Part shown: positions 19,044-45,970 of the stretch, in pieces
Layout of the letters: every line of letters starts with the position of its first letter
Numbering within the stretch: the first letter of the stretch is position 1
From: Coniferiporia sulphurascens
Lineage: Eukaryota; Basidiomycota; Agaricomycetes; Hymenochaetales; Hymenochaetaceae
Length of the DNA stretch: 64,000 nucleotides
NCBI GenBank assembly: GCA_002794785.1
Contig: NBBA01000004.1
Span: forward strand, 1,984,001-2,048,000
Reading direction: 5' to 3'
The notes under the pieces: model-generated
Seen by the model: the letters and a program-made list of their open reading frames with translations, nothing else
What the model was told of the DNA's origin: nothing
The model's database searches: none
Made by a program: the position numbers and the translations under genes

Positions 19044-19958
19044 TCACAGCGACACGATCTTTCCCGGCCAGAACGCATCGCCTCCCTTATTGACCTCGTA
19101 CCACTCGTTGTCGTGTGCCAAAATTACGCGCACACGCGGCAATGTCATCACATCGGCAATTCTCCGTATGTTCTCTGCCGCTTGTTCTTTGTTGTGGTGC
19201 ATGCAGACGTGTCCGCGTACTTTGTCATGAATGTCGGCGATGTCGCCTTCGCCACGGATGAGCCTCCAGTCGTGCGCGCTATCTCCAGCGAGATACACCC
19301 AGCCACCATCCGATGATGTTCGCGCCAGGATATTAACATGTCCTGCAAGATGACCTGGCGCATCAATAATGTAGAGCGCGCCGTCGCCGAAGTAGTCGAA
19401 AGCACGGGGGAATGGGCCAATAGGCTTCCATGATTCGTCGTTGACGTCCAGGAAGTCGGTTCGGCCTTCCGGTAGGAGGTCCGAAGGGAAGGGACTCGCC
19501 GGGTCCGCGGGATAACCTGGCTGGAACAGTGTTTGGGCTTCGCCACCCACTATGAAACGTGCGGAGGAGTACAGCGAGGGGTCCCCGACATGATCCCAAT
19601 GACAATGCGACAGGCATACATGGGTAACATCTTTCGGTTTCAATCCCCCCTTCTCAAGAGATGTGGGTACGTCAACCGTGACAGTCGGATGGTAGATAGT
19701 CGAAATACGATGTGCGCTGAACGCAGCATCATCCTTGATGTCGCGACGTATTCCGAGGTCGAAGAGCAGGCGAGCCCGAGTGGCGGCATGGGTAAGGAGG
19801 AAGGCAAGCGAAGGCACCAAATGCGTCTCTCCTTCCTTCGCGATACTAACGACGGTGTGGTCGGGAAGCGCGAGAAATCCGCCGTCGAGAGCAGAAACTT
19901 CACAGTATGCCTGGCCAGGGAGTGCCGGGTGCAATGGGGGGACTTCACGTTGGGCCAT
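19044..19958 (-). CDS. Metallo-beta-lactamase-fold hydrolase, lactonase-like (copy 1)
   Basis: Intronless, 304 residues, MBL fold. The zinc motif HxHxDH is SHCHWDH at residues 117-123. Further ligand candidates are the His of DAPGHLAGH, the Asp of LAGDSAHD and the His of ILAHD. Spacing and flanks resemble the AttM/AiiA class of N-acyl-homoserine lactonases and related esterases; the substrate here is unknown. There is no signal peptide, so it is probably cytosolic. It is the first of three tandem paralogues on the same strand, with copy 2 closest in sequence. A TATA box (CTCTATAAAGTC, minus strand) lies about 50 bases upstream of the ATG. Confidence 0.85.
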   Translation of the reverse strand: MAQREVPPLHPALPGQAYCEVSALDGGFLALPDHTVVSIAKEGETHLVPSLAFLLTHAATRARLLFDLGIRRDIKDDAAFSAHRISTIYHPTVTVDVPTSLEKGGLKPKDVTHVCLSHCHWDHVGDPSLYSSARFIVGGEAQTLFQPGYPADPASPFPSDLLPEGRTDFLDVNDESWKPIGPFPRAFDYFGDGALYIIDAPGHLAGHVNILARTSSDGGWVYLAGDSAHDWRLIRGEGDIADIHDKVRGHVCMHHNKEQAAENIRRIADVMTLPRVRVILAHDNEWYEVNKGGDAFWPGKIVSL

Positions 19959-20527
19959 GATGGTATGATCTTATAAAAATGGGCGCGATAAGCTGCGACA
20001 TCAAGACTTTATAGAGAACAGCAGTTCTTGTGATGCGTATTTCTATTGGGTCTGCTTTGCTTCTCTGGAGCCCTGGAAAATCGTTACTGCACGGCCGCCT
20101 ATAATAAGGACCTATTCAAAATCTATGAAAATAAGACAAGGAATATACGGTGTCCAAAGACTTCTAAATGCCGTATATACATGCCTATCTGGGCTAACTT
20201 GCTTTTTGAAAGTTGCTTCTCCGGGCCTAAATTCGCCCTTTCAGAACCGGTGCCACTATTTCTCTCAGAATTCGAAGCTTGTACCCGCTTAGGCTCCTCT
20301 CATCGGGGCGGGCATCCGAGGACTTAATTTGATGCAGAAGCTCAAAATGAATTGATATCAATGCGGCCTGCTTCCACTCGTGTGCTAATCCGAACAATTG
20401 GGCCATATGATCTCACCGAGGCTAGGTTATTTTAATGTCTGTCTTTGCCGGAGTATTTTTGCTCTCCTCAACATATTATTGAAAAGAAACTGTTAAACAT
20501 TTGCGCTACCCAATCCCGATGATCTTG
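19959..20527. promoter_or_regulatory. Spacer between MBL copies 1 and 2 with TATA box
   Basis: Holds the copy 1 promoter (minus-strand CTCTATAAAGTC at 20005-20016). The rest is AT-rich without coding sequence. Confidence 0.5.
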
Positions 20528-21415
20528 TCACAATGTCTCTATTTTGCCTGGCCAAAACGCGCTTCCTCCCTTATTCTCTTCGTAGAACTTGTCGTCGTGA
20601 GCCAATATCACTCGGACGCGGGGCAGGGTCATCAAATCGGAAATCCGCCCGATTGTCTCTGTAGCTTGCTCTTTGTTCTGTTCAATGTGTTCCTCGGGGA
20701 TGTCGCCGTGTCCACAGACAAGCCGCCAGTCGTGCGCACTGTCTCCAGCAAGATATACCCATCCACCATCCGGCGAGGTCCGTGCCAGGATGTTAACGTG
20801 TCCCGCGAGATGACCCGGTGCATCGACAATATAAAGTGCACCATCGCCGAAATAATCGTATGCGCTTGGGAAGGGGCCAATGGGCTTCCTAGTATCACTT
20901 CCGGGGTCGAGGAAGTCCGTCCGGCCCTCTGGGAGGAGGTCCGCGGGAAAGACACTCTTCGGATTTGTAGGATAACCGGGCTGGAACAGTGATCGCGTCT
21001 CCCCGCCTACAACAAAGCGCGCGGAGGAAAACAAAGCCGGATCTCCAACATGGTCCCAATGGCAATGGGAAAGACACACATATGGGATGTCCTTGGGCTC
21101 GAGCCCGCCTTTTTTAAGTGATGCGATTACGTCCTGTGGGACTTCTACGTCAAAGAGCTTGGAGCGCTGGACGACTGGAGGAATGGCGTTCTGCAGGTCG
21201 CAGCGTATACCAAGGTCAAATAGGATCCGAGTACGGGTGGTAGCATGCGTGAGAAGGAATGCGAGGGAGGGCGCAGTGTGCTTTTCCCCTTCTTTTGCTG
21301 TAGAAATGAAAAGATGCTCCAAGACTTGCAGGATCCCTCCCTCGAGAGCAGACACTTCGTAGTACGCCTGGTTCGGGAGTGGAGGGGGCAATGGGGGAAC
21401 TGTATGCTGTAGCAT
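20528..21415 (-). CDS. Metallo-beta-lactamase-fold hydrolase, lactonase-like (copy 2)
   Basis: Intronless, 295 residues from the ATG at 21415. The frame is open further upstream, but that part contains the TATA box and is not shared with copy 1. Zinc motif SHCHWDH, then DAPGHLAGH, LAGDSAHD and ILAHDD are intact. Relative to copy 1 it has a shorter loop after the GDI segment. The last residues WPGKIETL match WPGKIVSL of copy 1. Expected to be a functional zinc hydrolase; substrate unknown. Promoter TATA (CTCTATAAAG, minus strand) at 21457-21466. Confidence 0.85.
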   Translation of the reverse strand: MLQHTVPPLPPPLPNQAYYEVSALEGGILQVLEHLFISTAKEGEKHTAPSLAFLLTHATTRTRILFDLGIRCDLQNAIPPVVQRSKLFDVEVPQDVIASLKKGGLEPKDIPYVCLSHCHWDHVGDPALFSSARFVVGGETRSLFQPGYPTNPKSVFPADLLPEGRTDFLDPGSDTRKPIGPFPSAYDYFGDGALYIVDAPGHLAGHVNILARTSPDGGWVYLAGDSAHDWRLVCGHGDIPEEHIEQNKEQATETIGRISDLMTLPRVRVILAHDDKFYEENKGGSAFWPGKIETL

Positions 21416-22091
21416 TTCTGTTATTTGCTGTAGAACTCGGTGCAGCAGATGCCGTCCTTTATAGAGGGTGGCGTCCCCACAGCATGTGATGCATAAGACA
21501 TTTATTTTGGGCTTCCATGGGACCACAGCTCCATACCCAGTCGGATGCACATAAATATATATATATCCCAGCCTAGTATACTCCTAGAGTAGTGCTGGCG
21601 AAATGTTATTCCAGGTTAGGTTCTATACTGCCATTTTACAACGACACTTCGCGGCTACATCATCGTCTATCGTCGATCAAGCCGTAGTCGGCGATCAAAA
21701 TACTTAGAAGGGACACGCGATGGATTGGCGACGCGCCCCCAGCACGCGTTAAATTTATTTTTAATGGTCCCTCCCCGCAGTTCCACACGATTGCGTTACA
21801 GCATCTTATTCGAAACCAACGATGCTTTCGATTTAATAGTCAGTCACTTCCTGGACTTGCAACTCGCGCCAACGTTCTTTCTGGGGAAAACCTGATGATA
21901 CAGCCAAGAAGGTTCTACCACTAGCACTATGATACCGTAAGTTCTTTACTTTGAAATAACAGGGCGGACGCGACAAAATTGCTCCTGACAATAGCAGAAG
22001 TATAGATCCAGTTAAAGCGTAAATAACCCGCATATTCTCCACAAGAGTCGGTGCAAATTGTCGCACTACAATGACTTCCACGACCTTTCCG
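21416..22091. other. Spacer between MBL copies 2 and 3
   Basis: AT-rich, with a short (TA)n run at about 21551-21564 and the copy 2 TATA box. An open frame overlapping the 3' end of copy 3 has no family resemblance and is not called. Confidence 0.5.
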
Positions 22092-23016
22092 CTACAGAGA
22101 TTGTATCTTTCCAGGCCAGAATGCATCTCCTCCTTTATTCGCCTCAAACCACTCATTATCATGAGCTATGATTACGCGCACGCGAGGTTGCAATAGCACG
22201 TCTGCAATTCTGCGAATAGTCTTCGCCGCCTCCTCCTTGTCCTGATGCATACATATATCCCCGTGTACTGCATCGTGTAGGACGGCAATATCCCCTTCCC
22301 CACGGATGAGCCGCCAGTCATGTGCACTGTCTCCCGCGAGGTAGATCCACCCGCCATCAGGGGAAGTCCGGGCGAGGATGTTCACGTGCCCCGGGAGATG
22401 TCCAGGAGCGTCGACGATATAGAGGGAGCCGTCACCGAAGTAGTCGAGTGCGCGGGGGAAAGGGCCGATGGACTTCCAATCGGCGCCCTTCGTATCGAGA
22501 AAGTCTGTCCGATCGTCTGGGAGCAGATCCGCCGAGAACTCGCCGTTGGGGTCCTTGGGGTATCCTGGTTCGAAAAGGGGGCGTGCCTCAGCACCCAGGA
22601 GGAATCGTGCCTTGGTGTAGAGCGCGGGGTTTCCGACGTGGTCAAAATGAACATGGGAGAGACATATATGTGTGATTTTCTCTAGCGTCAGCCCACCAGC
22701 CATTAACGACGCGACAACATCTTGCGGAACGCGTAAGTCGAAGCCCCCTTCCAGACGCTTTTTGAGGACTGGTGTCAGCGCGGGACTGTTTAGCCCCGTG
22801 GCGCATATCCCAAGATCGAAAAGGAGATGTTTGTTAGAGGGGACGTGTTTGAGGAGGAAAGCGAGTATCGGCGCTTCGTGTTTGTCACTGTCTGCAACGC
22901 CCGCCACAGCATAGGTACACGGGAGGAGGAAGAAACCTCCTTCGAGCGCCGAAACGTCGCAATACGCTTGTTCCTTGTTTCGGGAGAGGGAGAGGTATGT
23001 TATGAGGTTCAGCCAT
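22092..23016 (-). pseudogene. Metallo-beta-lactamase-fold hydrolase (copy 3), N-terminal frameshift
   Basis: Same family as copies 1 and 2, more diverged. The zinc motif is SHVHFDH, and DAPGHLPGH, LAGDSAHD and IIAHDNEW are present. The homologous start is ATG 23016 (reads MAEPHNIPLPLPKQ). An extra 7 bases (GGAACAA, a near copy of the neighbouring ACAAG) then shift the frame just before the codons for AYCDVSALEGG. A TATA box (TTCATAAAG, minus strand) at 23060-23068 fits the 23016 start. From the next in-frame ATG, 22907, a 271-residue protein lacking the first beta-strands could still be made. It is either a recent pseudogene or a gene using the shorter start. Confidence 0.7.
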
Positions 23017-26233: not shown

Positions 26234-27236
26234 AGTTGTCTTTGGCAGGTATTCTACACGAGTATGTGTTGTTCTAACAGTGTCAAGCCCAAATTCATAC
26301 AGTATGATTAACTTACGAGCTTTCCCCCAGTTCCCGTAACACGAAACGCTGTCTAGTCATTCCTTTTCGGCTAACTGGGTGACATCTCTGTCTTTCCACC
26401 ATTTTATCAAGCCTGTCGAGTGCGCAACAGTTTTATGGCTATCCCAAAGTGGTGGCCCATACTGGCGTAGTCTGGGCTCTTGGGGTTATGAATTGGCGGC
26501 TGACAAGGGCAATAGACTCTTGGCCTCCAATATTCTTGGGCGCTTCGGTCAGGTACAAAAGCTTGTCTATCGGCTATCTGACACGGCTAAAATACATATA
26601 CTCTCTTACTGGCGGATGGCCTTGCGACCCCTTTTATCCGCTTTGTTGTGGTTAATCAATTGTTGCGTGCAAGTGAAATATCCAACAGTTTTTCGCACCT
26701 AATCTGCTCAAGGTGTTCTTCCCCCGCTACTGGATCGCCGTTTTGTGTCTCACGGAATAGGATAACCATCCGCAGCATAGAGGATGGATAGGGGTGGCTA
26801 CGAATATGACCGTCGGGATTCAGGGTCGTACGTTACATTTTCAACCCGAACGCACGCGCGACTTGCGCACTCCGTTAAACGCTTAGACTGCGGATGTCAA
26901 CGCGCCCTATGTGCAGCAGGGGCGAAGACAATAATTTGGGCTAGTCAGTGTTCTGTATTTGGCAAAGGTCTCGCTGTTTGTTTTATTTACGGCATTGGAC
27001 CAATCAGATATGTGAACATCCTCTCTCTACATAAGCAAAATGAGCTACGTTATTCCCCACAAACGAGTCGAGATCTGGCGCATCATCATTTCACCCCCAA
27101 TGTCACTCGGTGGTCCCTGCGAGGGATAGCAATTGTGTCATCTGCTATCGGATTCGAAGGTTGCATCGTTAGCTTGCGGGAAAAGTCGCATTCAAGATAG
27201 GAACTTACCAACACTGGAAGGAGGCAAGTGAGAAAA

Positions 27237-27392
27237 TTACGTTGGGCATGGTATGCAACTCGCTGTAGTCGTTGGGATCCCAGATATCGTGACGGTCAGT
27301 ACTTCGCATAGTTCGGGACAGGGACGGTCGACTATCGCTTCGGTGGCCGACACGAAAACTGCGAGAAGAGCGGTCAGGACGAAAATGCGCAT
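27237..27392 (-). CDS. Small secreted Cys protein alpha-A (51 aa)
   Basis: Short, intronless. It begins MRIFVLTALLAVFVSA, a typical signal peptide, followed by a mature part of about 35 residues with two Cys pairs: CPELC and, near the end, CIPC, separated by a Thr-rich stretch (TVTISGIPTTT). Secretion is expected; function unknown. It matches alpha-B and alpha-C nearly residue for residue in the signal peptide but diverges in the loop before the first Cys, as expected for a fast-evolving secreted family. A TATA-like box lies about 86 bases upstream and a splice donor about 30 bases after the stop. Confidence 0.75.
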   Translation of the reverse strand: MRIFVLTALLAVFVSATEAIVDRPCPELCEVLTVTISGIPTTTASCIPCPT

Positions 27393-27477
27393 TGTTGCTG
27401 ACTTTTGCGAAATCCCGTCTTTGCTAATAAGTGGTGTCTGGGTAGTGAAGAGGCTACAATATGGACAAGGTCTTGGT

Positions 27478-27485
27478 CTTTTATC
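27478..27485 (-). promoter_or_regulatory. TATA-like box of alpha-A
   Basis: GATAAAAG on the minus strand. The surrounding sequence is conserved in all three alpha copies, where C has the perfect TATAAAAG. Confidence 0.55.
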
Positions 27486-28120
27486 CAGTGCCTATTTTTA
27501 AGTGAAACCAATGCCCAGCTCGTCCTCATATTCTACTGAATCATATCTCCGTTGTTTGGTCAGCATACCGGTCTGGAATGCGACGCCCATGGAGACCTCC
27601 GGAGTCGTGATGTCGGCTCACCTCTCCATTTTGATGCCCGACTGGATCCCCTGGAGTAATGGCCAGGTCGGACATGTCGGTAAGGGGCGTCAATTATCAA
27701 GACAGAGAAGTTCCTGGTCGGTACTTGTTCCGGTACGGTGAATATCGCTATTCGGGAGCGTGATAACCAAATAACTCACCCCAGCGCTCTTGACGCTCCA
27801 ACCGGTTGCAATCCTTTGTACACTGTTACCCCTGCTTCTGCCAGCGGCCATCAAAAAGTCTTAAAACAATGTCTTCCACGAGAGTCTTATTTCGGCCTCC
27901 TCAATCCACCCTCTTGTTTTTACGGAACCGACTATTGCGTGTACACCTGTTGACAAAATTCGCATACATTCTTGTGTATCCGTGCCTAGGAGTTCCCCGA
28001 AGCCCCCGCCTGAGCTTTAGTACCATCCTTACTATTGCGAATCACGCCCGTGTAATCACGGTTCCAATCTACCAACTTTGTGTTTAGCATGAATTACGGC
28101 CGCTGGACGAGATTGTACCA

Positions 28121-28279
28121 TCACGAGCAGGCGCAGTGTGATTTCTGCGGCTCCTTCCTAGCGTTGGTTGACCCCGGTGAAGAACAAGGCGGGCATTCGA
28201 TGCTAGTGGTGACTAGAGACATCGCACCATTGGTGAATGCAACAATGGTGACAAGATAAACTAGTGAGACGGAACGCAT
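28121..28279 (-). CDS. Small secreted Cys protein beta-A (52 aa)
   Basis: Intronless. The signal peptide MRSVSLVYLVTIVAFTNG is followed by about 30 residues with ECPPC and a C-terminal HCACS (C, x, C). The stretch between (SSPGSTNARKEPQKS) is polar and basic. Two Cys pairs could form disulfides or bind metal. Nearly identical to beta-B, which supports real coding: most differences are conservative and none breaks the frame. Function unknown. The name beta is mine. Confidence 0.75.
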   Translation of the reverse strand: MRSVSLVYLVTIVAFTNGAMSLVTTSIECPPCSSPGSTNARKEPQKSHCACS

Positions 28280-29481
28280 GGTAGGAATATTGGTGGGTTT
28301 CTCGGCGGTTATTTGGGGTCTCCGTTCTCCTCCCTTATGAGTACTTTCGGGCTGTTGGCTGCCAAGTGCAAAGGAAGGGAAAGCATGGTCAGCTCGATGA
28401 CCGGGCGTTTATCACACCGATATTCCACTCCCGCCCGTTGTTGGACGTACTCGTAACCGGCCGCGCTTCTTGACCGTCGGGGCCCGGCTTCGCTGCAAGT
28501 GGTGGTTGTTTTGCATCTCTGGAGCTTTTTTCGCACAACTCTGCTTGATCCTGATGACTGTTCGAGGATTCATGAGGGAAAAACTTGAAGATTAAGTAAA
28601 CGGGTCTTAAGTGCGCAGCCTCAATCATAGATCCAGGGGAGGGGAGGTGGAGGGAGACTCGGAGAGAAAAGTCCGCGACCCGAGGATCATTACTACAACT
28701 GATCCTTCCGAAGATCGGCGTACACAAGTTCGGATTTTTGGTGTCACCTTAGGAATTTACTTCACGTCTGACTCCGGTCGAGTACAAAAGCTTGTCTATC
28801 GGCTAACTAACGGGCTAAAGTACTCTCTTACCCGGCGGACCGCCTTGCGACCCCTTTTATTCACTTTTTTCCTGTTGTTAATCACTCGTTGCGCACAATT
28901 GTGACATCCAACAGTTGTATCCTACCGAAGGAGCCTCCTTCTACCGCTACTAGAGTGCCGTTTCGTATCTCACAGAACGGGATAGCCATTCCGAGTCGTG
29001 GCATAGAAGACAGATAGGCATGGCTGCGGAAAGGAACGTCGCGATTCAAGACCGCACCCCACATTTTCAACCCATCTTACACGCGCTGCAAATCGCTTAG
29101 TGCTCCCATTGCGAATGCTGACGCTCTATGTGTAGCTGGATCGAATACAGTAACCTGGGCTAGTCAGTGTTCTGTACTTGGTCAAAGGTCTCGACGTGTG
29201 TTTCAATTGTGGCATTGGATCGATCAAATATGCGAACACATTCTTTACACATAGGCGAAAAAAAAAGTCTGTTATTATCTGAGGATGCCCTACAAACGAG
29301 CCGAGATTTGGGACATCATCATTTCACCCCCCCCCCCATGTCGCTCAGTGGCCCTTGCGAAGGATTAGCAACTGTGCCATCCTTTATTGGGTCCGGAGGT
29401 TACATTTTCAGCGTGCGCTTGCGGGAAAGGTCGCACATAGGACAGAAACTCACCAACAATGGAAGGAGGAAAACAGGAAAA

Positions 29482-29640
29482 TTACGTGTGGCATGGTTCG
29501 CAACTCGTTGTAACCGTTGGGGTTCCAGATATCGTGACGGTTTCGAATTCGCAGAGACCTTGGCAGATAAGGGTTGTCGTTGTGGTGGCCGACACACTGG
29601 CAAAAGCTGCGAGAAGAGCGGTCAGGACGAAAATGCGCAT
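29482..29640 (-). CDS. Small secreted Cys protein alpha-B (52 aa)
   Basis: Copy of alpha in unit B. Starts MRIFVLTALLAAFASVSA (signal peptide), then a TTTTT run, CQGLC, a Thr-rich linker (TVTISGTPTVTT) and CEPC near the end. The run of Thr is typical of O-mannosylated fungal secreted proteins. Same Cys spacing as A and C. TATA-like box at 29723-29730 on the minus strand; splice donor GTGAGT at 29448-29453 just after the stop. Confidence 0.75.
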   Translation of the reverse strand: MRIFVLTALLAAFASVSATTTTTLICQGLCEFETVTISGTPTVTTSCEPCHT

Positions 29641-29722
29641 TGTTGACTTTTGCGGAATCCCGTCTTTGCGAATGTGTAGTGTCTGGGTAGTGAAGAAGCT
29701 ACAACATGGACGCGGACTTGGT

Positions 29723-29730
29723 CTTTTATC
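29723..29730 (-). promoter_or_regulatory. TATA-like box of alpha-B
   Basis: GATAAAAG on the minus strand, 83 bases before the ATG, in the same context as in unit A. Confidence 0.55.
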
Positions 29731-30378
29731 CAGTGCGTATTTTTAAATGAAACCAACGCTCAGCACGCCCTCATATTCAAATGACTGATATCTCCGTCGT
29801 TTTGTCAGCATATCGGTCTGGATTGCGACGCCCATGGAGACCTCGGGAGTCGTGATGTCAGCCCACCTCTCCGTATTGATGCCAGACTGGATCCCCCGGA
29901 GAAATGGACAAGACGGACAGGTAGGTAATGGTCGTCATGATAAAGAAGTTCCTGGTCGGCCCCTGTTCCGGCACGGCGAATATTGCCGTCTTGGAGAGTA
30001 ATACACCAAATAAGTCACCCCAGCGCTCTTGACTCTTCAATCGGTCGCAATCCCTTTGTCCGCTGTTACCCCTGCTTCTGCCTGCGGTTAGCAAACGGTC
30101 TTTAAATGATATTCGCCCTGAGAAAGGCGCTGCGGCCTCCTCAACCCGTCCTCTTGTTTTTTACGGAACCGACTATTGTGTGTACACTTGTTGACAAAAT
30201 TCGCATACATTCTTGTGTATCCATGCCTCATGTAGGAAACTCTCCCTGAAACCTCCTCCTGGACTCTAGTGTCATCCCCACTATTGCGAATCACGACCCC
30301 CCTCCGTGTAGTCACGGTTCCGGCATCTACCATCTTTGTGTTTAGCACGAATTACGGCTTCTGGATTAGATCCCACCA

Positions 30379-30537
30379 TTACGCGCAGGCGCAGTGTGAT
30401 TTCTGCGGCTCCCTCCTAGCATTGGTTGACCCCGGTGAAGAACAAGGTGGGCATTCGATCGTCGTAGTGGCTAGAGACATCGCACTATTGGTGAATGCAA
30501 CGACGGTAACAAGATAAACCAGTGAGGCGAAACGCAT
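30379..30537 (-). CDS. Small secreted Cys protein beta-B (52 aa)
   Basis: Copy of beta in unit B. MRFASLVYLVTVVAFTNS signal peptide, ECPPC, polar linker and C-terminal HCACA. It differs from beta-A at about ten positions with the frame and all four Cys kept, which points to selection on the protein. A minus-strand GTATAAAGG at about 30597-30606 fits a TATA box about 60 bases upstream; the corresponding site in unit A is degenerate. The frame is open further upstream, but that part includes the TATA box. Confidence 0.75.
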   Translation of the reverse strand: MRFASLVYLVTVVAFTNSAMSLATTTIECPPCSSPGSTNARREPQKSHCACA

Positions 30538-31286
30538 GGTAGAAATTCGGCGGGTTTCTCGACGGACACTTGGAGTCTCCCTTCTAAATACTCCTTCCTT
30601 TATACGGTGACCCAATAAGCTGTTGCAATGTTTTGTGGCTTCGGAATAAACCATCTATATCTCAACAACTGAGGCACATAAATAAAAACTAAAAATTCCT
30701 CTGGAAAGTCCTGTATCCTGGCCTTCTGGTGATAGTTTATATAGGGCATAATTCAAGGAGATGAGGTAGTTATAGACTGTTTAATCGGGGGCAGCATTGC
30801 AACAGTTTATTAGGCATGAACGTCGCTAAAGTCGCGATTCAAGGCCGTGCCCCACATTTTTAATCCATTTTTCACGCGCAGTTTCAAGTTGTGCAAATCA
30901 CTGAGTGCTCACTGAGAATGCTAACGTACTCTATCTGTATCTAGAGCGAAGACAGTGATCTGGGTTAGTCAGTATCTGGTACTTGGTCAAAGGTCTCGAC
31001 GTTTGTTTTAATTGCGGCACACAACTGATCAAATATGCGAACAATCTCTTTACACAGAACTTGAAGCAGAAAAATAACTCTGTTATTATATGAGGATGCC
31101 CTACAAACGAGTTGAGATATGGCACGTCATCATTTCACCCCCAATGTCATTCAATGGTCCCTGCGAGGGATAGCAGCTGTGCCATCCGCTATTGAACCCA
31201 AGGGTTCCGTTTTCAGCTTCAGGTTGCGGGAAAGGTCGCATTCAAGACAGACACTCACCAACACCGGCAGAAGGCAAACAAGAAAA

Positions 31287-31454
31287 TTACGTCACCGTGA
31301 CGGTGCTGCATGGTAAGCAGGTCGTTGTAACCGTTGGGATTCCATATTCCGTGACGGTCTTTACTTCGCAGAGGCCGATGCAGACCCCGTCGTCTGTCGC
31401 CGCGGTGGTCGACACGAAAATTGCGAGAAGAGCGGTCAGGATGAAAATGCGCAT
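31287..31454 (-). CDS. Small secreted Cys protein alpha-C (55 aa)
   Basis: Most diverged alpha copy. Signal peptide MRIFILTALLAIFVSTTA, then CIGLC, a linker ending PTVTTT, CLPC, and a short Val/Thr extension (STVTVT). The Cys framework is identical to A and B although the loops differ. TATA box TATAAAAG at 31543-31550, splice donor GTGAGT at 31253-31258 after the stop. Confidence 0.75.
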   Translation of the reverse strand: MRIFILTALLAIFVSTTAATDDGVCIGLCEVKTVTEYGIPTVTTTCLPCSTVTVT

Positions 31455-31542
31455 TGTTGCTGACTTTTGCGAAATCCCGTCTTTGCGAATGTGTAGTGGT
31501 GTCTGAGTAGTGAAGAGGCTACGATATGGACTAGAACTTGGT

Positions 31543-31550
31543 CTTTTATA
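31543..31550 (-). promoter_or_regulatory. TATA box of alpha-C
   Basis: TATAAAAG on the minus strand, 89 bases before the ATG. Confidence 0.6.
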
Positions 31551-32599
31551 CAGTACTTGTTTCTAAACGGAGCCGATTCCTAGCTCGTCCTCGTATTCAA
31601 ATGACTGATACCTCCGTTGTTTCGTCAGCATACCGGTCTGGTACTATGCGACGCCCATGGAGACCTCCGGAGTCGTGATGTCAGCTCACCTCTCCATATT
31701 GATGGCAGACTAGGTCCCCTGGAGTAATGGACAGGACGGACAGGTGGATAATGGACATCATTTATCAGGATAGAGAAGTTCCTGCCAGTGTTCTCGGCGA
31801 TTACTTGGCCCTTCTAAGTACTCCTTCCCTTATATGTACCTGCAGACTGTTGGCCGTCAAATGCAAAGGAAGGAAAGGCATGGTCAGCTCGGTGTCCGGG
31901 CGTTTGAGCACACCGATGTTCTACTCCCGCCGCCCGTCGTTGAGCGAACTCGTAACCGGCCGCGCTTCCTGACCACGCCGAAGTCCGACCTCGCCGCGAA
32001 TCAAGGTTATTCTACATTTCTGCCAGTGAGGCCTTTTTTTCGCACAACTCTGCTTGATCCTGATGACTGTTCGAGAAATTATGGAGAGGAATTATGGAGA
32101 GGGAAGAACTTTAAGATTAAGTAAATGGGTCTTAAGTGCGCAGCCTCAATCGTAGATCTAAGGGGGGAGGGAGGGGGAGGGAGACCCGGAAAGAGAGGTC
32201 CACTGCCCGAGGATCATTAACAACTGACCTTGCGGAAGGTCCGTGTACACAGGTTCGGATTTTTGCAGAGAAATTAAGTATTGTGGTTTCTGATGAATTG
32301 ACCATAGGATTGGTCATTACTTGAATCACTTCACGTCTGATTCTGAACGCTACTTGCAAGTCTTAGTGCTTACTTTTATTACTTTTATCAAGAAACACTG
32401 ATTTTTTTTAAAAGTGTCATTTACGGGGAAGTGGGGAAATTTCAGCCTTCAGCCTTTGTTTCTCATTAAAAATGGCAGTGAAAAGTCAATTGGAACATGC
32501 AATGCGCATGATCGCCCGGAAAGAACTTCGTCGATCATTGTTTTCCCACGTGGATGCAACCGTTGGCTCACTTCGAAGTTTATGAAAAGTACACCTCGC

Positions 32600-32719
32600 T
32601 TAATAGCGGCTCCAGCATCGAGCCGAGGCGCAACTATGTGTTGCGGCAACTGGTAAGGACACGATGGACGCGGTTGCGAACGCGACAGTCGCGAGGAATG
32701 TGGTGAGCGTAAAGAGGAT
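32600..32719 (-). pseudogene. Relic of a small secreted protein gene (start codon lost)
   Basis: A minus-strand frame downstream of a TATA box (TTTATAAATAG, 32733-32743) reads ILFTLTTFLATVAFATASIV, a signal-peptide-like segment, then HSCASARCWSRY and a stop. The expected first codon is ATC where neighbours have ATG. The only upstream in-frame ATG lies beyond the TATA box. I read it as a decayed member of the same group. A longer protein from 32821 is possible but odd. Confidence 0.35.
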
Positions 32720-33319
32720 ATTCCTCTTAGGTCTATTTATAAACTCGTATGGACTCGGAGACTTGTCATCGTCAATTTCCAACACAAGCTTCTCGCTTCT
32801 GTATCCTTCTGGCACGACTTTCATAAAGTTGTTGACATGAAATTTTCGGCAGTCCTGACTCCGAAGTCCGCTCACAAGGCCTGCATTCTTGGGGCTGAAA
32901 CGCCGCTTGCAGTACGCCGGGCTTGTGGCACCGCGATGAGTCCTGAGCTGATGCCCTCTTGCTTCGATTCTAACTCATCAGCCCCTGTGTACTGGAATCA
33001 AAAAAACCACAATACAGTACTCGGCATATCAAGATGTATGACAGCGGCGTCTTATTTCTCGGACTTCAGTGACCGTTTGTTGGTACTAGTAGCAATATAC
33101 ACACTCTTATTGGATACGGTTACAATCTTGCCGCATACATCCTCGCTAAAATGGTCAAAAATACGTCGAAAGGTACGTCCCCGTCGGCACCCCTTCCCAA
33201 CAGGCGCTACGCATAGAAATAGGTGCGGGTCGACTGCCGAAATCATGCAATCACTAATAGGGAATCATCGTCAAATGAATACCCATGCGTCTTATACTGC
33301 TGGTTGTAATCCGGCTCAC

Positions 33320-33475
33320 CTAGTCGCAGCCGCAACCAGGAGGAAACCCACTGATAGTGGTTGCGGTGGTAGTGGTAATAGGAACAGGGGGTGGACAAGG
33401 TGGGCATTCGAACGGCTTGCTGGCCACAAGACCGGCCAAAGCAACGAGCAGCAGAGTTGAGTAGATAGTCTTCAT
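33320..33475 (-). CDS. Small secreted Cys protein delta (51 aa)
   Basis: Intronless. MKTIYSTLLLVALAGLVAS signal peptide, then ECPPCPPP, a Thr-rich stretch (PITTTTATTISG) and C-terminal CGCD. The ECPPC and CxC ends are those of beta, so delta is probably a distant relative, outside the repeated segment. TATA box about 45 bases upstream. The stop TAG is followed at once by a splice donor-like GTGAGC. Function unknown. Confidence 0.75.
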   Translation of the reverse strand: MKTIYSTLLLVALAGLVASKPFECPPCPPPVPITTTTATTISGFPPGCGCD

Positions 33476-33518
33476 GGTTTCGTGAGCTCCTTCTATCGAT
33501 TCAGTCCGCTTAACCGTA

Positions 33519-33526
33519 CTTATATA
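33519..33526 (-). promoter_or_regulatory. TATA box of delta
   Basis: TATATAAG on the minus strand, 44 bases before the ATG, which leaves only a very short leader if transcription starts about 30 bases further on. Confidence 0.55.
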
Positions 33527-35065
33527 TGCAGAAGTATATTATATGATCGAGGTCGGTGGCGGAGTCTGGTGCGAACTCTTTAACAGGCCGGAATATGCAT
33601 CTCCTGCCCTCTGGCCCAAGCTCTCCGTAACGTATGTTTCCTAACGGCCCTAAAGCACTGACGGAAGCGCAAAAGTATCCGGGCGCCATTAAGTCGCGGC
33701 CGATGCCGAATTTCAGTCTTGATGCGTGCATTTACAGTATGACTAAGAGCGGCATTTCTAAAAGACCGCGCAAACGTGAACACCAAAAATCAAGAAATGT
33801 TGACAAAATCTAATTGGGTTCAGCTGTCGTCCATAACTTTCAATACACGGCCTTCGTCGCAGTTAGACTTCCGGCGTCTCCTGATGTGCGGATGTTGGCA
33901 AACCTTACACAAAGGAATTTCCTCTCGGGCTTTGATAACCGCTGTGCTCGCTGTAAGTTGTCAATCTAGCAGTGGTAAGGCCGGATGGAGCAATCAGAAG
34001 AGGGGACACGGGAGGCATACCGGATAATGCGTACAGTCGTCGTCGAGGCAGATAAAGAAGTAATAAAAACAAAACAAAAAGCAGAAAAAACACTCGCAAG
34101 CTTCGTGCCGACAACCGGATGTTTCGTGTACGAGATCGGATGATGCTTTGCTTTAAGGGCGCAGATGTGACACATCATCTTACAAATTATCAAGGAACGC
34201 GGAGCAATGTAGATGTGTGGGGAGAAGTGGATAATTTGAGGTGGACTCGTTAATTTGGCGGACTGTTGACTCCGGATACAACTGCTCAGGTACTCGCAAG
34301 AAAATTTTATCGGAAATTCACCTCCAACCTTTCCAATAACTCCGGGGAGGTCGGTGCGATATTTTTATATCGTGCGACGTGAACGAAGTTATACTTTTGG
34401 AAAGGACGGCGTCATCCCGGCTCGCATCAAGACGCCGAAACATTGTAATTGATTCGGCAAGACCATGTACGGCAAGAAGGGATTTAATGGAATCGGTGTC
34501 AGTGTAAGCAGTGTTGATCGTTTCGCTCGTGTCGGATACCTAGAAAATGCATGGGGCCTGCCGTGTGAGTCAAAAAAAACTCCACAGCGTGTATGTCGGC
34601 TCGCAAACGGCATGAAAACTGTGTTGAAAACCGATCCCGCCCTTAAGTCGATTTGTTTGTACCTGAAATGCGCCCAAACAGCCTTTACTCGCCTCGACCA
34701 CGAGGTAAACCGAAATGGAAGGCAAAACGTAGGGTAATTAGAACGAATGTGTCGTCTTGACTGGGCGCACCTCTTGACAGTTGCCATGAATGCCCTACCC
34801 GGTAAGGCGTGAGAGTAAAAGACGGCGCTCACTTCACCCCTAGAAAACTGGACGCGTCGGCTCTTACGCCTTGCAGAACGGATGTTGAAAAGTCCGACAA
34901 CAGACTGTAGAATACCGTAAACTTACGGGATTTTGTGCCTGATGCAGGCGTACCTTGTGAAGTACGCGGGTATACAAATTCCGACAGAGCCATCACGAAT
35001 AAGCACTCTCGGCGAACGTTTGAGGTAGGAGCAGGACGCCGAAAGTTGTGAAGCACCAGCTGAAT
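33527..35065. other. Intergenic region within the accessory island
   Basis: 1.5 kb. Frames of 90-147 codons occur on both strands at 34389-34832 but show no start context, signal or family. I see nothing I can support. Confidence 0.5.
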
Positions 35066-35074
35066 TATATAAAT
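35066..35074 (+). promoter_or_regulatory. TATA box of epsilon
   Basis: TATATAAAT about 95 bases before the ATG of the small secreted protein gene at 35167. Confidence 0.55.
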
Positions 35075-35166
35075 TAGAGCGACACAACTTAGAAGTGAGC
35101 GTCAAGTACCCACCTCAGAAAACCCGCAAACCATCCACAGGTCTCACATCTCCGTCATCATCAACA

Positions 35167-35358
35167 ATGCGCACCGCTACTCTCGCATTTATCTTCTCCA
35201 TCCTCGCCTCAAGCCTAGTATCAGCGAGCACGACCTCCGCGCCATCGACAACTACCATTTCAACAGCTTCTCCCAGCCCTTCATTGATTTTCAAGTGTTT
35301 GTTCGTCTGCCCACCTGGGGTACACATTGGCGATGAAGGGAGCATCTGCCACTGCTAA
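35167..35358 (+). CDS. Small secreted Ser/Thr-rich Cys protein epsilon (63 aa)
   Basis: Plus strand, intronless. A signal peptide of about 20 residues (MRTATLAFIFSILASS...) is followed by a Ser/Thr/Pro stretch (TTSAPSTTTISTASPSPS), then CLFVCPPG and, at the very end, CHC. The CPP and terminal CxC recall beta and delta, suggesting one broad family. The Ser/Thr stretch is a likely O-glycosylation site. A splice donor (GTATGC) follows the stop within 2 bases, with a plausible CAG acceptor near 35413, so the 3' UTR is probably spliced. Function unknown. Confidence 0.75.
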   Translation: MRTATLAFIFSILASSLVSASTTSAPSTTTISTASPSPSLIFKCLFVCPPGVHIGDEGSICHC

Positions 35359-36492
35359 GGTATGCGACGACTCTAATTGATTTCTTGTGGGGCTAATCGA
35401 CCAAATCCCGTCAGGGTTTCCGTGCCGCAGTCGGAAGTTTTCATTACGATACACCTATTCTTTCAACAATCCAATGTATGTCGTCCCTGCGGTTCGGGGT
35501 GTTGAGTGTAACTCATGTTAGTGAACCCAGTGTGACGGGCTCCAAGTTCTTGCAGTAATATTGTATAGATCGTTCTTTTTTTGTAAGCGGGGAAAATAGC
35601 AACTTTTGTTTCATGAAGGTCCGCCAAATTGCTTCTGAATTTGTGAGAGCTCAAAGTATCCCTTCGCATTATTCTCCCGGCTGCGCGGGGCAAAATGACT
35701 ATGGACGGGGAATAGTCTTAAGGATTACGTGGGATGGCAGGGCAACTTGAACGTGCTCTTGCATTTCCGCGTCGGTCGTGTGAAACCCCACTAAGCTAAG
35801 TATCGGCCAGACTCAACAAAGACATCATCGTATGTGTTGCAAGGCACGCATGATGCATCTGGGCATTTCGCATGTTGAATTGCCGAAAATTCCCGCTTAA
35901 GCGAGTAGAGTCGCGCGGAAACTGACATGAGCTGATGCACACAGCACGCAACAAAGTTAAGGCACCCATCGGGCTTTACTGTTCACTCAGCGAAGCCTTT
36001 GAGGGTCAATAGCATCCAGGTCTGCATGAGCAATCCCCCTAATCCTGTGACAGGTACAAATAAGCAATTGATGCAATCGGATGGGCAGGTGGAACGTCAT
36101 TACATTGCTGCATTGTATTGTTTGGGCAGAAGAAAGTGTATTATGAAGGACGCGTGGAATAGCGCAGGTTCATTCAAAATGAATGCTCAGCGTTTGATCC
36201 ATGACGACACTGTGTCGTGTCGAATCAATCGACGCCGACGAGTAATCGAGCTCCGTAGCTGTGGCTCATGTGGGATTTGTACAATGTCGGCGTGGTCAGA
36301 AGTTGACCTCGAATAGTAGAGGGTACGACTGCAGACGGGTCGCTCTTGTGTGTCGTCCGGAAAGATATGGCTTTCGTAGTTTCCAGCAATAGTGAGCGTG
36401 AGCACCAAGGTCGACTCCAACCTGTTGGCTGGGCTAACGCAGGTGGAGGGAGGGGTTAATGAATGCGGGGCCGGGCGTGCAGAAAATGTCGT
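35359..36492. other. Intergenic region
   Basis: 1.1 kb between epsilon and the LYR-motif gene, with probable 3' UTR sequences of both. No coding evidence found. Confidence 0.5.
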
Positions 36493-36969
36493 TCAGGTGG
36501 GGGATGTCTTATCTGAGAGGTCATCCACTGGCAAAGGCGGGTACATTCTCTTCAAGTGCCGGTATTTTCTTAGTTTAATAAGTGCAAGAGTTTCTATGCC
36601 ATTCATCTTATACGTTTAACGTTCATGAGGAGCCGGACAGACTCACCATTTCTGATGAACTCCCCAAGTTGCAACGCCTTCTCGATGTCCGCCGGGTCGG
36701 TCAGGTCCTTGTTCTCTTCAGTAGCAAACGCAGTCGCCGGCAGTCAGCCAAATGTATCTGTACCATTAATACCCCACTGACTTTCATACACCTTCCGCAG
36801 TCTACCATGGAAGTCGTACCTACAAAAGTGGGCATCAACTGTCAGAATGACAAGGGCTGGAGAATCTGTGCAACCAGGCTACTCACGTAGGATCTGGGTA
36901 GTCACGTCCCAGCCTGTGAAGCTCTTTGTATAGCCCGATGGCCCGTAGTCGAGTTGGGTTGAGAGGCAT
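36493..36969 (-). CDS. LYR-motif mitochondrial protein (ETFRF1/LYRM5 type)
   Basis: Small helical LYR protein, 92 residues from four exons (36969-36887, 36819-36792, 36713-36647, 36593-36493). The LYR-like motif is IGLYKELHRLGRDYPDP at about 11-27, followed by KNKDLTDPADIEKALQLGEF and IKLRKYRHLKRMYP. GRDYP and the DP-x-I-x-x-x-x-x-x-GEF spacing match human ETFRF1 (LYRM5), which removes FAD from the electron-transfer flavoprotein in the mitochondrial matrix. Other LYR adaptors are less similar. The acceptor of exon 3 (CTGAAGAG) is less certain than the rest. Divergent from the DUF1295 gene. Confidence 0.8.
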
Positions 36970-37227
36970 GGTGGTCGTGGCTGACGAAGAAAGCGTCGTG
37001 CACAAGCAGCGCAAGACTCAAGTGCGTTGTGTAGTATCGTTTGGTCCCGATTAGTGACGCAGTGACGTCGATCTTCCGAGTCGCCACCTCTGGCAAGTTG
37101 CAACGGCTTGCTTCTGCCTCCCATCACACAAAACTTTCTGTGAATATCCTCGAGGCAAAGGCCAACCTCCTGTATAATTCGGCTTATTATTTCTTTACAC
37201 TTCGTCATCATACCAAACCCGATAAAA
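36970..37227. promoter_or_regulatory. Short divergent promoter (LYR gene / DUF1295 gene)
   Basis: Only 258 bases separate the two start codons, so both promoters must share this stretch. No clear TATA box on either strand apart from GATAAAA right before the plus-strand ATG. Confidence 0.45.
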
Positions 37228-38543
37228 ATGGGCGTCTTTTCTCGACTCCTGCCACCGCTCGCGAGTGCATACGGTCTACAAACACGTCGGTATCTCCAAT
37301 CGTCAAGCTCAAGTGTGCCGATAAGCTAACAGATAGAGCCAAAAGTTCTTGCCCTTGTATTCGTTCCTCAGGCCAACGAAATGTACTATGACCTCGGCGG
37401 TGCTCTCGGCTTCCTCTCGACAACAGTGATCTCTTTATACTATCCTGCGCTGAAGGACAAATATATTCTCAGAAAGCCAATCCAACTTCCAGGTCTGTCA
37501 GCGTTCTCCTCGAGACAGCTCCTACTCAGCGGCTGCCTGGTTCTCTGGAGCTCGAGGTTGGGGACTTTCCTGCTTAGTGTAAGTGCGGAAAACCTTTATG
37601 CTAGTTCTCGCGTTATAATGTCGACTGGCAATAGCGTGCCTTAAAGGCCGGAGGAGATTCCAGGTTTGACGAAATCAAGCATCAGCCTGCTAAATTCACA
37701 GCATTCTGGATGGCGCAAGGTCTGCTATCTCTTCAAGTTGTCGAATCTATTATTCTTACTTTTACTCAAAGCAACCTGGATCTTCCTCGTCGGACTTCCT
37801 GTTTACATGGTACCTTCTTCTATACTAAGCCCAAGCCCAAGCCCAAAAGCCTAAATACCTGCTCCTATTTACAAGGTCAACACGCTCCCTTCTCACCTTC
37901 ACTCTGCTCTCGGCGTTCGGGACTATCTCTCTCTCGGTTTCTTCCTCTCCTCATTCCTTCTGGAAGTGGTGGCGGATCACCAAAAGACCGTATGGAGGAA
38001 AGAAAAGGCCGAAAAGAAACATGATGAGCAGTTTATATCACGAGGTCTCTGGAGCATTTCTAGGCACCCAAAGTATGTCCATTGCACGGTTCCTTCCCCG
38101 ATGGCAGACTAGAATTGTGCCTTTCATAGCTACGTGGGCGAGGTCGGACTGTGGACAGGAATCTGGGCTCTGTCAACCGCATCGCTGCAAACGCCCTACT
38201 TCCCCATGGTAACCCCAATCGTCGCAGCGGCGAGCCCCCTTTTCACATATTTCTTGCTACGACGCGTAAGTCTGAGCTCCTGTTAGTTATTTCAGAAGAA
38301 TCTAAAAACAACGATCAGGTCTCCGGTGTTCCCCCTCTTGAGGTAATATTAAGCTTTCTTTTCCTTGTCGTTTATATATATATATTTCCATCTGCAGAGA
38401 GCCGCAAACAGGAAATTCGGAAAAGATCCAAAGTGGCTGAAGTATAAAAGGTTCGTAAGATTGTCACGGTCACTACTGGACGGGAATCTTATTTGGCTTC
38501 TAGTACTGTACCTGAGTTCTGGCCGTGGGGTTCTCAGCGCTAG
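37228..38543 (+). CDS. DUF1295 / steroid 5-alpha-reductase-like membrane protein
   Basis: Multi-pass membrane protein of the DUF1295 group, related to the C-terminal domain of steroid 5-alpha reductases and isoprenylcysteine methyltransferases; the substrate is unknown. Nine exons (37228-37285, 37337-37578, 37635-37719, 37772-37809, 37876-38072, 38130-38265, 38319-38342, 38398-38450, 38504-38543) give 290 residues. Signature pieces: WSSRLGTFLLSRAL, DSRFDEIKHQPAKF, FWMAQATWIFLVGLPVYM, LEVVADHQK, SRGLWSISRHPNYVGEVGLW and KFGKDPKWLKYKR. The RHPNY-E motif is the conserved cofactor-side signature. The first donor (CAAACAC/GTCGGT) is weak; the rest is clear. Confidence 0.85.
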
Positions 38544-39282
38544 CTTGGGCTGCGCCCGTACTGCAATGATCAGCGCTCCAATACCATTAGCCCCTGTAAC
38601 CTACAAACTCAACCTACCCTATTAGCGCCTTTCGGTCTTGATGGCCCAGATGTCAGCTAGAAACAAAGATAAATCACGCACCATGACCTTCGACTAAGAG
38701 ACTAAATTAAGCCTCCTATCGCGTGAGTAACCCGGTCCGTTAAACCCGCGAAGCACACGTGCCTCACAACAATTAAAACTGCGGGAGAATCTTGAGCAAA
38801 CGGGGTCAGATAAGTACACGCCATGCTCGGACGCGCTGGCAGGGGTTGAGCATCCATGGCATGATCTCATGAGGTATGACCGTTCGTGAAGGATAGGGTT
38901 CGGAACGCTGAGGAGGCGATTCTACCCGCAGTAGTGGTCCCATTTGCGCTCCCAGATTTTCCAATATTTAAATTCACGTCCCAGTCTGGCATGACTTCTA
39001 CAGTGGTAATTGAATTGCGCGGAAGGGCGGACTCGGAGCCTGGAGAAACTTAAGCTTAGGCCGAAGACGATCTTATATCTAATCAGATCACTCCGATTAC
39101 ATAATAAATCACGGACCCGACAGAATTTCGGTGCCAAGTGTGGTACGACCTGAACTCGTTTTTATACCCCGCGTCGACGCGGATTCGGCTCATCGCCCCC
39201 TTGGCTTCCCCCCTCTCGTCCTCCGTCCCCGGGCGCTCCTCTTCGCCACTCTTGCTACCGTCGCGGACGTGCTTTCACTGCC
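38544..39282. other. Intergenic region upstream of ERG3
   Basis: 740 bases, likely ERG3 promoter, ending in a CT-rich leader (39180-39270). No coding evidence. Confidence 0.5.
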
Positions 39283-43286: not shown

Positions 43287-45970
43287 ATGTTGAGCATTCT
43301 GCGTCCTCGAGTGTTCATCGCCAACAAATCCCTATCGTCAAATCCACTCGTTCAGGTTGTCTGCCAGCGGCGTTTTCAAAGCGGTGTCTCTGGCCTGCGT
43401 CGGAAGCCTACGTGGGATCAACGGTACACGCTCGCCCATAATGCCCCTGGACTACGTTTGTTCGGGAATCTTGCGGGAAGCGGAAAGCCTCCCGAACCCA
43501 GCAAGGATAAGGACAAGGCAGTTATCCCTGATGCCCAGAAAACTGCGAAAGACTTAGGCAATGAGAAGCATGTCAGTGTCGCACAGCAGAGGAAAAAGGA
43601 CTGGGCTATAGTCAAACGTCTTCTCGTTAACATATGGCCTCCTGGTAATTGGAATGTCAAGAGCAGGGTCGTTTTGGGCTTCGGGTTGCTACTGACTGGC
43701 AAGGTATGCGTATCTGCCCTAATTCCCCCTCGAACTTGACCTTCATAGTTCGAGCTCGTTTTAGGTCCTTAATGTGCAGGTTCCCATTCTTTTCAAGAAC
43801 ATCATCGATTCCCTCAATATTGAGATGACGGCGGATACTACCGTGTGGGTATTGGCTGGATCTTTGATTCTGGGATGTTCGTTATGCCTCAAACACTGCG
43901 TTCCCATTTAGTCTAATTATGCATTATAGACGGTGCTGCACGTGTTGGTGCTACGCTTTTCACAGAGTTGCTTAATGCCGTCTTCGCCAATGTCGGCCAA
44001 CGAGCTATTCGCAAGGTCGCTAAGGAAACATTTGAACACTTGTTACATCTCGACCTCAAATTTCACCTTTCTCGGCAAACGGGTGGTCTAACACGTGCAA
44101 TTGATCGTGGAACGAAGTATGTCGGAATTCTCTGGCCTTGCTTTTTTTAATCACTCAAATTTCGAAGGGGCATCACTTTCATTTTGCAATCTGTTTTATT
44201 CCGAATAGTGCCGACGGCCCTCGAGATATCCATGGTTTGCGGAATATTGGTGGGTAGTTTGACCTCGCCTTGGGATGTCCTAAGCTCAACTGTATTTGCA
44301 AGACTTATAAATTTGGATGGGATTATGCAGCCATAGTCGCAGCGACCATGGTTGCGTATACGTGGTTTACTGTACGGACGACTTCGTGGAGGTGAGCACT
44401 AATTAATTTACGTGTGAAAAGTGCTTGTGAGGAGTAACTGACGTTTTCTAGGACTCAATTTCGCCGTGACGCCAACAAAGCAGACAATCGGGCGGCGACT
44501 GTGGCTGTTGACTCACTCATTAACTATGAGGCCGTTAAGGTGCGTGCATTGTCCACTATGAATAGGACGTCCATAACAGTTGTTTTTGTGATTGCTGTAG
44601 AACTTCAATAATGAGAAATTTGAAATTGCACAGTATGACAAACACCTTGCGTCATACGAAAAATCTTCAGTCAAGATCACGACGTCGCTCGCGTTCCTCA
44701 ATTCGGGACAAAACGCCATTTATTCAGGTGCCCTCACGCTCATGATGTTTTTGGCCGCGCAGGGCGTGGTCAATGGCACCATGACTGTTGGAGACCTCGT
44801 GATGGTTAATCAACTTGTCTTCCAATTATCACTCCCACTCAATTTCCTCGGGACGATTTACCGCGAAATGCGTCAAAGCTTACTTGACATGGAGGTGTTG
44901 TTTAACCTACAGACTGAGCACACGCCGCCTCCTGTATTTTATTTCTGTTCTTCTGACTTCAAGGGGGATACTGAGGGCCTCCCTCTTACTATAGGATAAA
45001 CTTGGAGCGAAACCTCTTGCTCTTAAAGGTGGCTCCATTCGCTTTGAGAACGTACGCTTCGGGTATCACCCCGACCGGCCCATCTTCCAAAACCTCTCGT
45101 TCGCAGTACCTGCCGGAAAGAAGGTTGCCCTCGTCGGTCCCTCAGGCTGTGGCAAATCGACTGTATTCCGCCTGCTCTTCCGTTTCTACGACCCTGCCTC
45201 AGGGCGCATCTTCATCGACGACCAGGACATCCATGAGCTGCAGATCGACAGCGTCCGACGCGCTATTGGTGTCGTCCCGCAGGACACGCCGATGTTCCAC
45301 GCGGACATTATGCACAACATCCGCTACGGCCGTCTTGACGCTAGCGACACTGAAGTAATTGAGGCTGCGAGACGCGCGAACGTGCACTCGACGATCGAGC
45401 GCCTACCGGAGGGGTACGCCACGACAGTCGGTGAACGCGGATTGATGATCTCGGGTGGAGAAAAGCAGCGCTTGGCCGTTGCGCGTGTCCTGCTGAAAGA
45501 TCCGCCGATTCTCTTCTTCGACGAAGCTGTAAGGCCTCATGTATCGACACTGCGAAACAGGTTTATTAACGTGCTACCTACATAGACATCAGCGTTGGAC
45601 GGCCGAACTGAGACGGAGTTGATGAAAAACATCAATGGCATTCTCCTTGACAAAAGGCGAACGAGCATTTTCATAGCTCATCGGTACGTCGACGCCTTGT
45701 TTGTCTCCGCCATTTTCTCAAAATCTTTCCTCCCTAAACCTTTGTAGCCTTCGCACGGTAGTCGAGGCAGACCTCATCCTCGTTTTTAACCAGGGTGAAG
45801 TCGTCGAGCAGGGAACGCACCAGGAACTTCTCGAAAAGGGCGGGCTGTACTATACTATGTGGATCGAACAAGCATACCAAGGTGCGGAAGGCGAGGAGGT
45901 TGCTCAGTCGGAAGGGGGATTACGGACTGAAGAGGCTGAAGCTGCGAAAGTCGACGCCAGCCGGACGTAG
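43287..45970 (+). CDS. ATM1: Mitochondrial iron-sulfur ABC transporter Atm1
   Basis: Half-type ABC exporter of the mitochondrial inner membrane that supplies a sulfur-containing compound for cytosolic Fe-S protein assembly. Ten exons (43287-43703, 43765-43876, 43930-44116, 44168-44249, 44303-44391, 44452-44539, 44601-44933, 44995-45528, 45586-45683, 45748-45970) give 720 residues. The N terminus is Arg/Ser rich (presequence). The membrane domain holds [33 protein letters not shown] and [15 protein letters not shown], all Atm1 hallmarks. The ATPase domain has Walker [11 protein letters not shown]-loop VPQD, signature ISGGEKQR, Walker B ILFFDEATSALD and the switch IAHR. All catalytic motifs are intact. 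Confidence 0.95.

Follow-up and report, generated by a model that had tools for sequence, protein, structure and literature searches.

A candidate island of orphan genes encoding tiny secreted cysteine peptides in Coniferiporia sulphurascens

A stretch of 64,000 nucleotides from the basidiomycete Coniferiporia sulphurascens (contig NBBA01000004.1, positions 1,984,001 to 2,048,000; hereafter the window) carries an island of seven short open reading frames (ORFs), three alpha, two beta, one delta and one epsilon, which span 27237-35358. The occurrence of seven such peptide ORFs in one place is well above chance, and with confidence a little above even the island is explained here as a group of orphan genes whose products would be tiny secreted peptides, closed by two disulfides and changing fast in their loops. 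Should this explanation hold, the products are quite probably real secreted peptides, whereas their action against another organism is a somewhat doubtful part of it.

All seven ORFs, of 51-63 codons, begin with a short basic N-terminus followed by a hydrophobic stretch and a small-residue cleavage site, and each encodes exactly four cysteines (6.3-7.8% of residues) arranged as two pairs, the second near the C-terminus. Only epsilon lies on the plus strand; alpha1-3, beta1-2 and delta are on the minus strand. The original prediction, made from this DNA alone, had described tiny, apparently secreted cysteine proteins with tandem paralogues, a description borne out by the ORFs, the signal-peptide rule given below and the cysteine pairs. 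Its count of six genes was too low, the seven given in brackets being correct, as all seven ORFs are present. The terminal CXC that it attributed to beta, delta and epsilon was also found, but the CPP said to be common to them starts in epsilon at the second cysteine (VCPPG) and does not form a CPPC pair there. In beta2, an in-frame ATG further upstream would give an alternative product of 91 amino acids (aa).

The signal-peptide rule is home-made (charge, hydrophobicity and small residues; not SignalP) and was devised with these proteins in view. Within the island, 7 of the 32 ORFs of 45-70 aa pass this rule, compared with 0.2 on average when the island was dinucleotide-shuffled 150 times, and the full design of signal peptide plus cysteine pairs occurred in none of those shuffles. 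Across the whole window eight of 214 ORFs pass, seven of which are the island genes. In a 200-kb sample from other parts of the genome, made up of twenty 10-kb stretches (contig C1 contributed nine, C2 six, C4 three and C8 two), six of 556 ORFs of 45-70 aa passed (Fisher P ~1e-6). Two of these six have 3-6 cysteines and, by reading, none has a closing C-terminal cysteine pair.

The alpha and beta copies are products of tandem duplication. They are found in tandem units with spacings of ~2.2 and ~1.8 kb, and the DNA upstream of beta is common to units 1 and 3; in unit 2 its place is taken by one 213-bp arm belonging to a dispersed inverted-repeat element. There are 35 other genome matches to this arm, several of them inverted pairs ~1.4 kb apart, and one copy of the element forms a perfect inverted repeat of 645 nt that contains no ORF of 90 aa. 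Apart from the arm, neither 26500-32400 nor 32300-39000 matched the rest of the genome at E 0.001. Searching the 39.3-Mb genome with the alpha1, alpha3, beta2, delta and epsilon proteins returned the island copies only, a result obtained by scoring the best candidates, which does not prove absence elsewhere. Weak matches on contigs C8, C13, C18 and C19 (E 0.05-0.33) were not accepted; the C19 match, the only one inspected, lies antisense within a fungal kinase ORF. A scan for a CPPC-plus-Lys pattern was uninformative, giving 34 matches (8 with the reversed-pattern control), of which 21 were two forms of one word.

Two stretches of the units were also seen to be well kept. A block that precedes the TATA-like box of alpha (27567-27683, 29812-29928 and 31632-31751) is 83-96% kept in the three units, above the mature alpha coding part. 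Units 1 and 2 are 96% identical over the 71 bp intervening between beta and alpha (27917-27987 and 30158-30228), the highest value among the 20 repeat families listed.

Divergence among the alpha copies was measured on a DNA-guided alignment of the three. They differ at 20-21% of ORF sites, with 25-27% in the mature part and 9-14% in the signal peptide, while the 3' flank differs at 19-22% and the 5' flank (300 bp) at 13-15%. In the two pairs with alpha1 that were tested, the mature part is more diverged than the 5' flank (P 0.002-0.003) and more so than the signal peptide (P 0.007). Retention of the frame and of all cysteines under 16 random changes in each of three lineages has a P of 0.008-0.013, and invariant codons number 24 of 50 against 17 expected, indicating clustering (P 0.0004). 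Indels in the alpha ORFs are of 3, 6 and 12 nt, and those in the 3' flank of 1, 2, 5, 6 and 11 nt. The earlier observation that paralogues retain the frame and every cysteine while loops change was confirmed on the alpha and beta alignments. This pattern of evolution supports coding constraint with fast loops, without proof of positive selection. Previous alpha values, a ratio of nonsynonymous to synonymous rates (dN/dS, omega) of 0.78-1.09 and a joint simulation P of 0.002, are superseded because the alignment behind them had a misplaced 6-nt insertion in alpha2.

The island genes also share marks outside the coding frame. AC is found at -3/-2 of the ATG in all seven, and a TATA-like box lies 51-101 nt upstream of the ATG in six, beta1 being the exception. 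An intron-like element, 50-66 nt long and comprising a donor, a branch point and an acceptor, starts 0-2 nt past the stop codon in the beta, delta and epsilon families. Within 6 nt, the loose intron pattern has a background of 5.5% of 19,602 positions, and a stop-adjacent element in at least three of the four families has a binomial P of 0.0006, a value that is optimistic because the loose pattern was set after the sequences had been read. The epsilon element meets the strict pattern as well (strict background 0.7% within 35 nt). Alpha2 and alpha3 failed the intron-like scan and, by reading, retain a GTGAGT donor at the site equivalent to that of alpha1. Splicing of the stop-adjacent elements may be predicted from their match to the consensus only. 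The features of the island are collected in Table 1.

Table 1. Positions in the window of the peptide ORFs, duplication units, repeat arm and intron-like elements.
Feature	Position	Strand	Description
alpha1	27237-27392	-	51 aa; CX3C-16-CX2C; TATA-like ATAAAAGA at -92; start context ACA-ATG
alpha2	29482-29640	-	52 aa; CX3C-16-CX2C; TATA-like ATAAAAGA at -89
alpha3	31287-31454	-	55 aa; CX3C-16-CX2C; 12 nt more before the stop than other alphas; TATAAAAG at -96
beta1	28121-28279	-	52 aa; CPPC-16-CXC; no pattern-matching TATA-like box in 160 nt upstream
beta2	30379-30537	-	52 aa; CPPC-16-CXC; TATAAAGG at -67, at repeat-arm junction
delta	33320-33475	-	51 aa; CPPC-20-CXC; single copy; TATATAAG at -51
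epsilon	35167-35358	+	63 aa; CX3C-12-CXC at extreme end; single copy; TATATAAA at -101
Duplication unit 1 (alpha1 + beta1)	26547-28770		approximate limits
Duplication unit 2 (alpha2 + beta2)	28780-30600		approximate limits
Duplication unit 3 (alpha3)	30817-32282		without beta ORF and its 3' DNA; approximate limits
Arm of dispersed inverted-repeat element	30602-30816		~213 bp; ~65 bp upstream of beta2 ATG; meets beta2 TATA-like box
Intron-like element, epsilon	35360-35414	+	55 nt, 1 nt after stop; GTATGC, GCTAAT, GTCAG; consensus match only
Intron-like element, delta	33254-33319	-	66 nt, directly after stop; GTGAGC, TTGAC, ATTAG; loose consensus only
Intron-like element, beta1	28069-28118	-	50 nt, 2 nt after stop; loose consensus only
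Intron-like element, beta2	30327-30376	-	50 nt, 2 nt after stop; loose consensus only
Intron-like element, alpha1	27145-27208	-	64 nt, 28 nt after stop; GTAAGT, GCTAAC, GATAG; strict pattern

A number of results count against the explanation by functional secreted peptides. The alpha omega of 1.45 (one-omega model) shows no significant difference from 1, the beta omega of 0.46 is not significantly below 1, and divergence of mature alpha has no significant excess over the 3' flank (P 0.21-0.40, two alpha1 pairs). The indels in the 5' non-coding flank of alpha are all of 3 nt, so that in-frame indels alone prove little. Invariant triplets in frame 2 number 22, nearly the 24 of frame 0, and one other sense and one antisense frame are also stop-free in all three alpha copies. 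In the site test (M2a against M1a), twice the log-likelihood difference for alpha was 31.9 over all codons and 15.1-16.1 over the mature part, with the fast codons interspersed among invariant Cys, Thr, Pro and Gly residues. The wrong-frame controls gave 22.5 (anti0), 18.5 (anti1), 8.3 (sense1), 0.07 (sense2) and 0.6 (anti2) over all codons, and over the mature part 20.6 (anti0, exceeding the 16.1 of the true frame) and 13.4 (anti1). Since two antisense frames score high too, clustered or multi-base changes may explain the score, and diversifying selection on alpha is not claimed. No promoter word common to alpha1, beta1, delta and epsilon was found beyond those in shuffles, and AlphaFold confidence is low (predicted local distance difference test, pLDDT, 65 for alpha1 and 57 for delta).

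The relationships between families belong to the same side of the argument. With the cysteines held fixed, P values for common ancestry were 0.53-0.85 for pairs with epsilon, a chance level, 0.08-0.70 for alpha-delta, 0.03-0.19 for alpha-beta and ~0.05 for beta-delta, and only 11 columns were aligned between the alpha profile and that of delta and beta. By these comparisons alpha is not clearly kin to delta or epsilon, and only weakly to beta. On sequence grounds, descent of the four families from one ancestor is not accepted, and the stop-codon element is the better lead. The argument that one design speaks for selection is therefore not supported as it had been put, since the families are not convincingly alike beyond the cysteine layout and neither omega differs significantly from 1. 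The original prediction had also named a dN/dS near 1 between copies as evidence against itself; on average this is what alpha shows, and the alpha frame and cysteines are nonetheless kept.

None of the seven proteins matched Pfam at E up to 10, in agreement with the earlier statement that no described family is recognisable. Alignment queries for alpha, for beta and for delta-beta-epsilon returned no match from a large protein collection of which the fungal coverage is not established and from which very short ORFs were possibly left out. A PDB profile search with alpha gave one match at E 5.8, judged to be chance. The alpha alignment with the misplaced alpha2 insertion was the query for the alpha collection search, the PDB search, the alpha1 model and the profile comparison. 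In the low-confidence alpha1 model, the mature part has two strands (residues 29-34 and 42-47) holding the inner cysteines 29 and 46, weak evidence that would fit a stapled hairpin. No matching family was found in the literature searched, which is weak evidence of absence. Within the limits of that search the families look undescribed, the kind itself, orphan small secreted cysteine proteins, being known.

From the sequence we infer secretion, disulfide bonding and a target along the following lines. The N-terminal signal peptide would lead each product into the secretory pathway, with cutting to about 30-45 residues. In that oxidising pathway the four cysteines would be joined as two disulfides that link the first pair with the last and close a loop of 12-20 residues, in many cases rich in Thr or Pro. 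After the tandem duplications that multiplied alpha and beta, the alpha loops diverged quickly, and the cysteines and several Thr, Pro and Gly positions were retained. A small, fast-changing secreted peptide without relatives usually works extracellularly, either on other organisms or on the environment of the fungus itself, and the fast alpha loops would fit such action on a variable target such as a competitor, a host or another microbe. Small secreted proteins occur in saprotrophs as well as in pathogens (PMC9723739; PMC7105643).

It is rather unlikely that the island represents an undescribed, lineage-restricted peptide arsenal, with four families built on one two-pair cysteine frame, an intron starting at the stop codon and alpha loops diversifying against a changing outside target. 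It is unlikely, too, that the ORFs are non-functional or decaying, as members of an old, partly relaxed family left open by chance in duplicated intergenic DNA. Such decay would agree with the alpha omega, with the flat distribution of alpha changes across codon positions (16/16/13), with the dispersed element close upstream of beta2, with the absence of beta from unit 3 and with a signal-peptide-like frame at ~32.6-32.8 kb (minus strand) that has no ATG at the expected start. All seven frames and all 28 cysteines are intact, however, the ORF indels are multiples of three, joint retention of frame and cysteines has a P of ~0.01, and start context (7/7) and TATA-like boxes (6/7) are in place. 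Because alpha retains its frame and cysteines, it is better described as a mixture of fixed sites and fast ones than as a dead ORF.

Other functions may be considered for genuine peptides of this kind. By reading, the mature parts have Thr/Ser/Pro-rich stretches, as might be expected of Thr-rich, possibly O-glycosylated cell-wall or surface peptides with which the fungus modifies its own surface, and other families of small secreted cysteine proteins do modify surfaces (PMC8596622). The island chains end, again by reading of all seven, at most six residues past the last cysteine, without a glycosylphosphatidylinositol-type hydrophobic tail, and they are far smaller than the hydrophobins or cerato-platanins described in that same source (PMC8596622), so that a surface role appears improbable. 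For beta and delta, which carry CPPC and CXC pairs, a small metallothionein-like chelator holding one metal ion extracellularly between CXXC and CXC is conceivable. There are only four cysteines, however, the alpha pairs are CX3C and CX2C, and the thiols of secreted proteins are normally oxidised; metal binding is accordingly considered very unlikely. Much the same low probability is given to peptide signals within the colony, acting in mating, development or fruiting, although size and secretion would fit. Basidiomycete pheromones end in a CaaX-like motif, which is absent here, paired basic residues are confined to RR in beta2 and RK in beta1, and the searches of Pfam were empty. On the favourable side, PMC7105643 discusses a role for Ssp1, an effector-like protein of Pleurotus ostreatus, in regulating ligninolysis as well as development and fruiting.

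Secreted orphan peptides, the explanation preferred here, may be compared with several known systems. Small secreted cysteine-rich proteins (SSCPs) are characterised in PMC8596622 by a signal peptide, a length of <300 aa and a cysteine threshold of 5%. Like the fungal small secreted proteins and SSCPs, the island peptides are short (51-63 aa, <300 in 7/7), pass the signal-peptide rule (7/7), exceed 5% cysteine and have no known domain. They differ in lying at the small end of the size range, in placing four families of one cysteine layout within ~8 kb and in having an intron-like element at the stop codon in three families. Cerato-platanins are secreted proteins of ~150 aa with four single cysteines (PMC8596622). 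The island peptides also combine four cysteines with a secretion signal, but at 51-63 aa, with paired cysteines and without a Pfam match they do not group with that family. Hydrophobins are small, secreted and cysteine-rich, often forming large multigene families in basidiomycetes (PMC3879219), and their eight cysteines are spaced C-CC-C-C-CC-C (PMC8596622). Small size and richness in cysteine are shared with the island, but four cysteines and no Pfam match place its peptides outside the hydrophobins. Alpha-hairpinins likewise have two cysteine pairs, in the layout CX3C-n-CX3C, and two helices. A CX3C first pair is found in alpha and epsilon, but the second pair is CX2C or CXC in all seven, so that the island peptides do not belong there; the low-confidence alpha1 model moreover shows two strands in its mature part.

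The seven genes are probably genuine, although fungi commonly encode small orphan secreted proteins of this broad type. Genes of ~50 codons readily escape gene finders and homology searches. If the island is transcribed, three alpha and two beta copies would provide a natural series for testing loop change on a fixed cysteine frame, and a stop codon with an immediate intron would be a mark for finding further such genes; otherwise, the island would be an ordinary fungal example of small secreted orphan proteins.

The island had been placed between housekeeping genes with no other gene in 10 kb. An actin-family gene (PF00022) indeed forms the left flank, and a gene-free 10 kb is consistent with the data, though not proven. 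To the right, three ORF pieces at 36.9-41.7 kb have no Pfam match, and an ABC transporter at 44995-45582 is the first recognised domain among the pieces scanned. Rfam and tRNA scans of the window gave nothing. The fungal part of the earlier assignment of the genome agrees with a Pkinase_fungal domain (PF17667) in one locus, and an ORF for a mitochondrial RNA polymerase is in keeping with a eukaryote. The signal-peptide-like frame mentioned above (~32620-32750, minus strand) has two cysteines, an upstream TATA-like sequence and, by eye, an ATG further upstream of the expected start; it is perhaps the remains of a further family. Near the island, at 19047-23015 on the minus strand, three consecutive ORFs with the metallo-beta-lactamase fold (PF00753) apparently form a tandem family.

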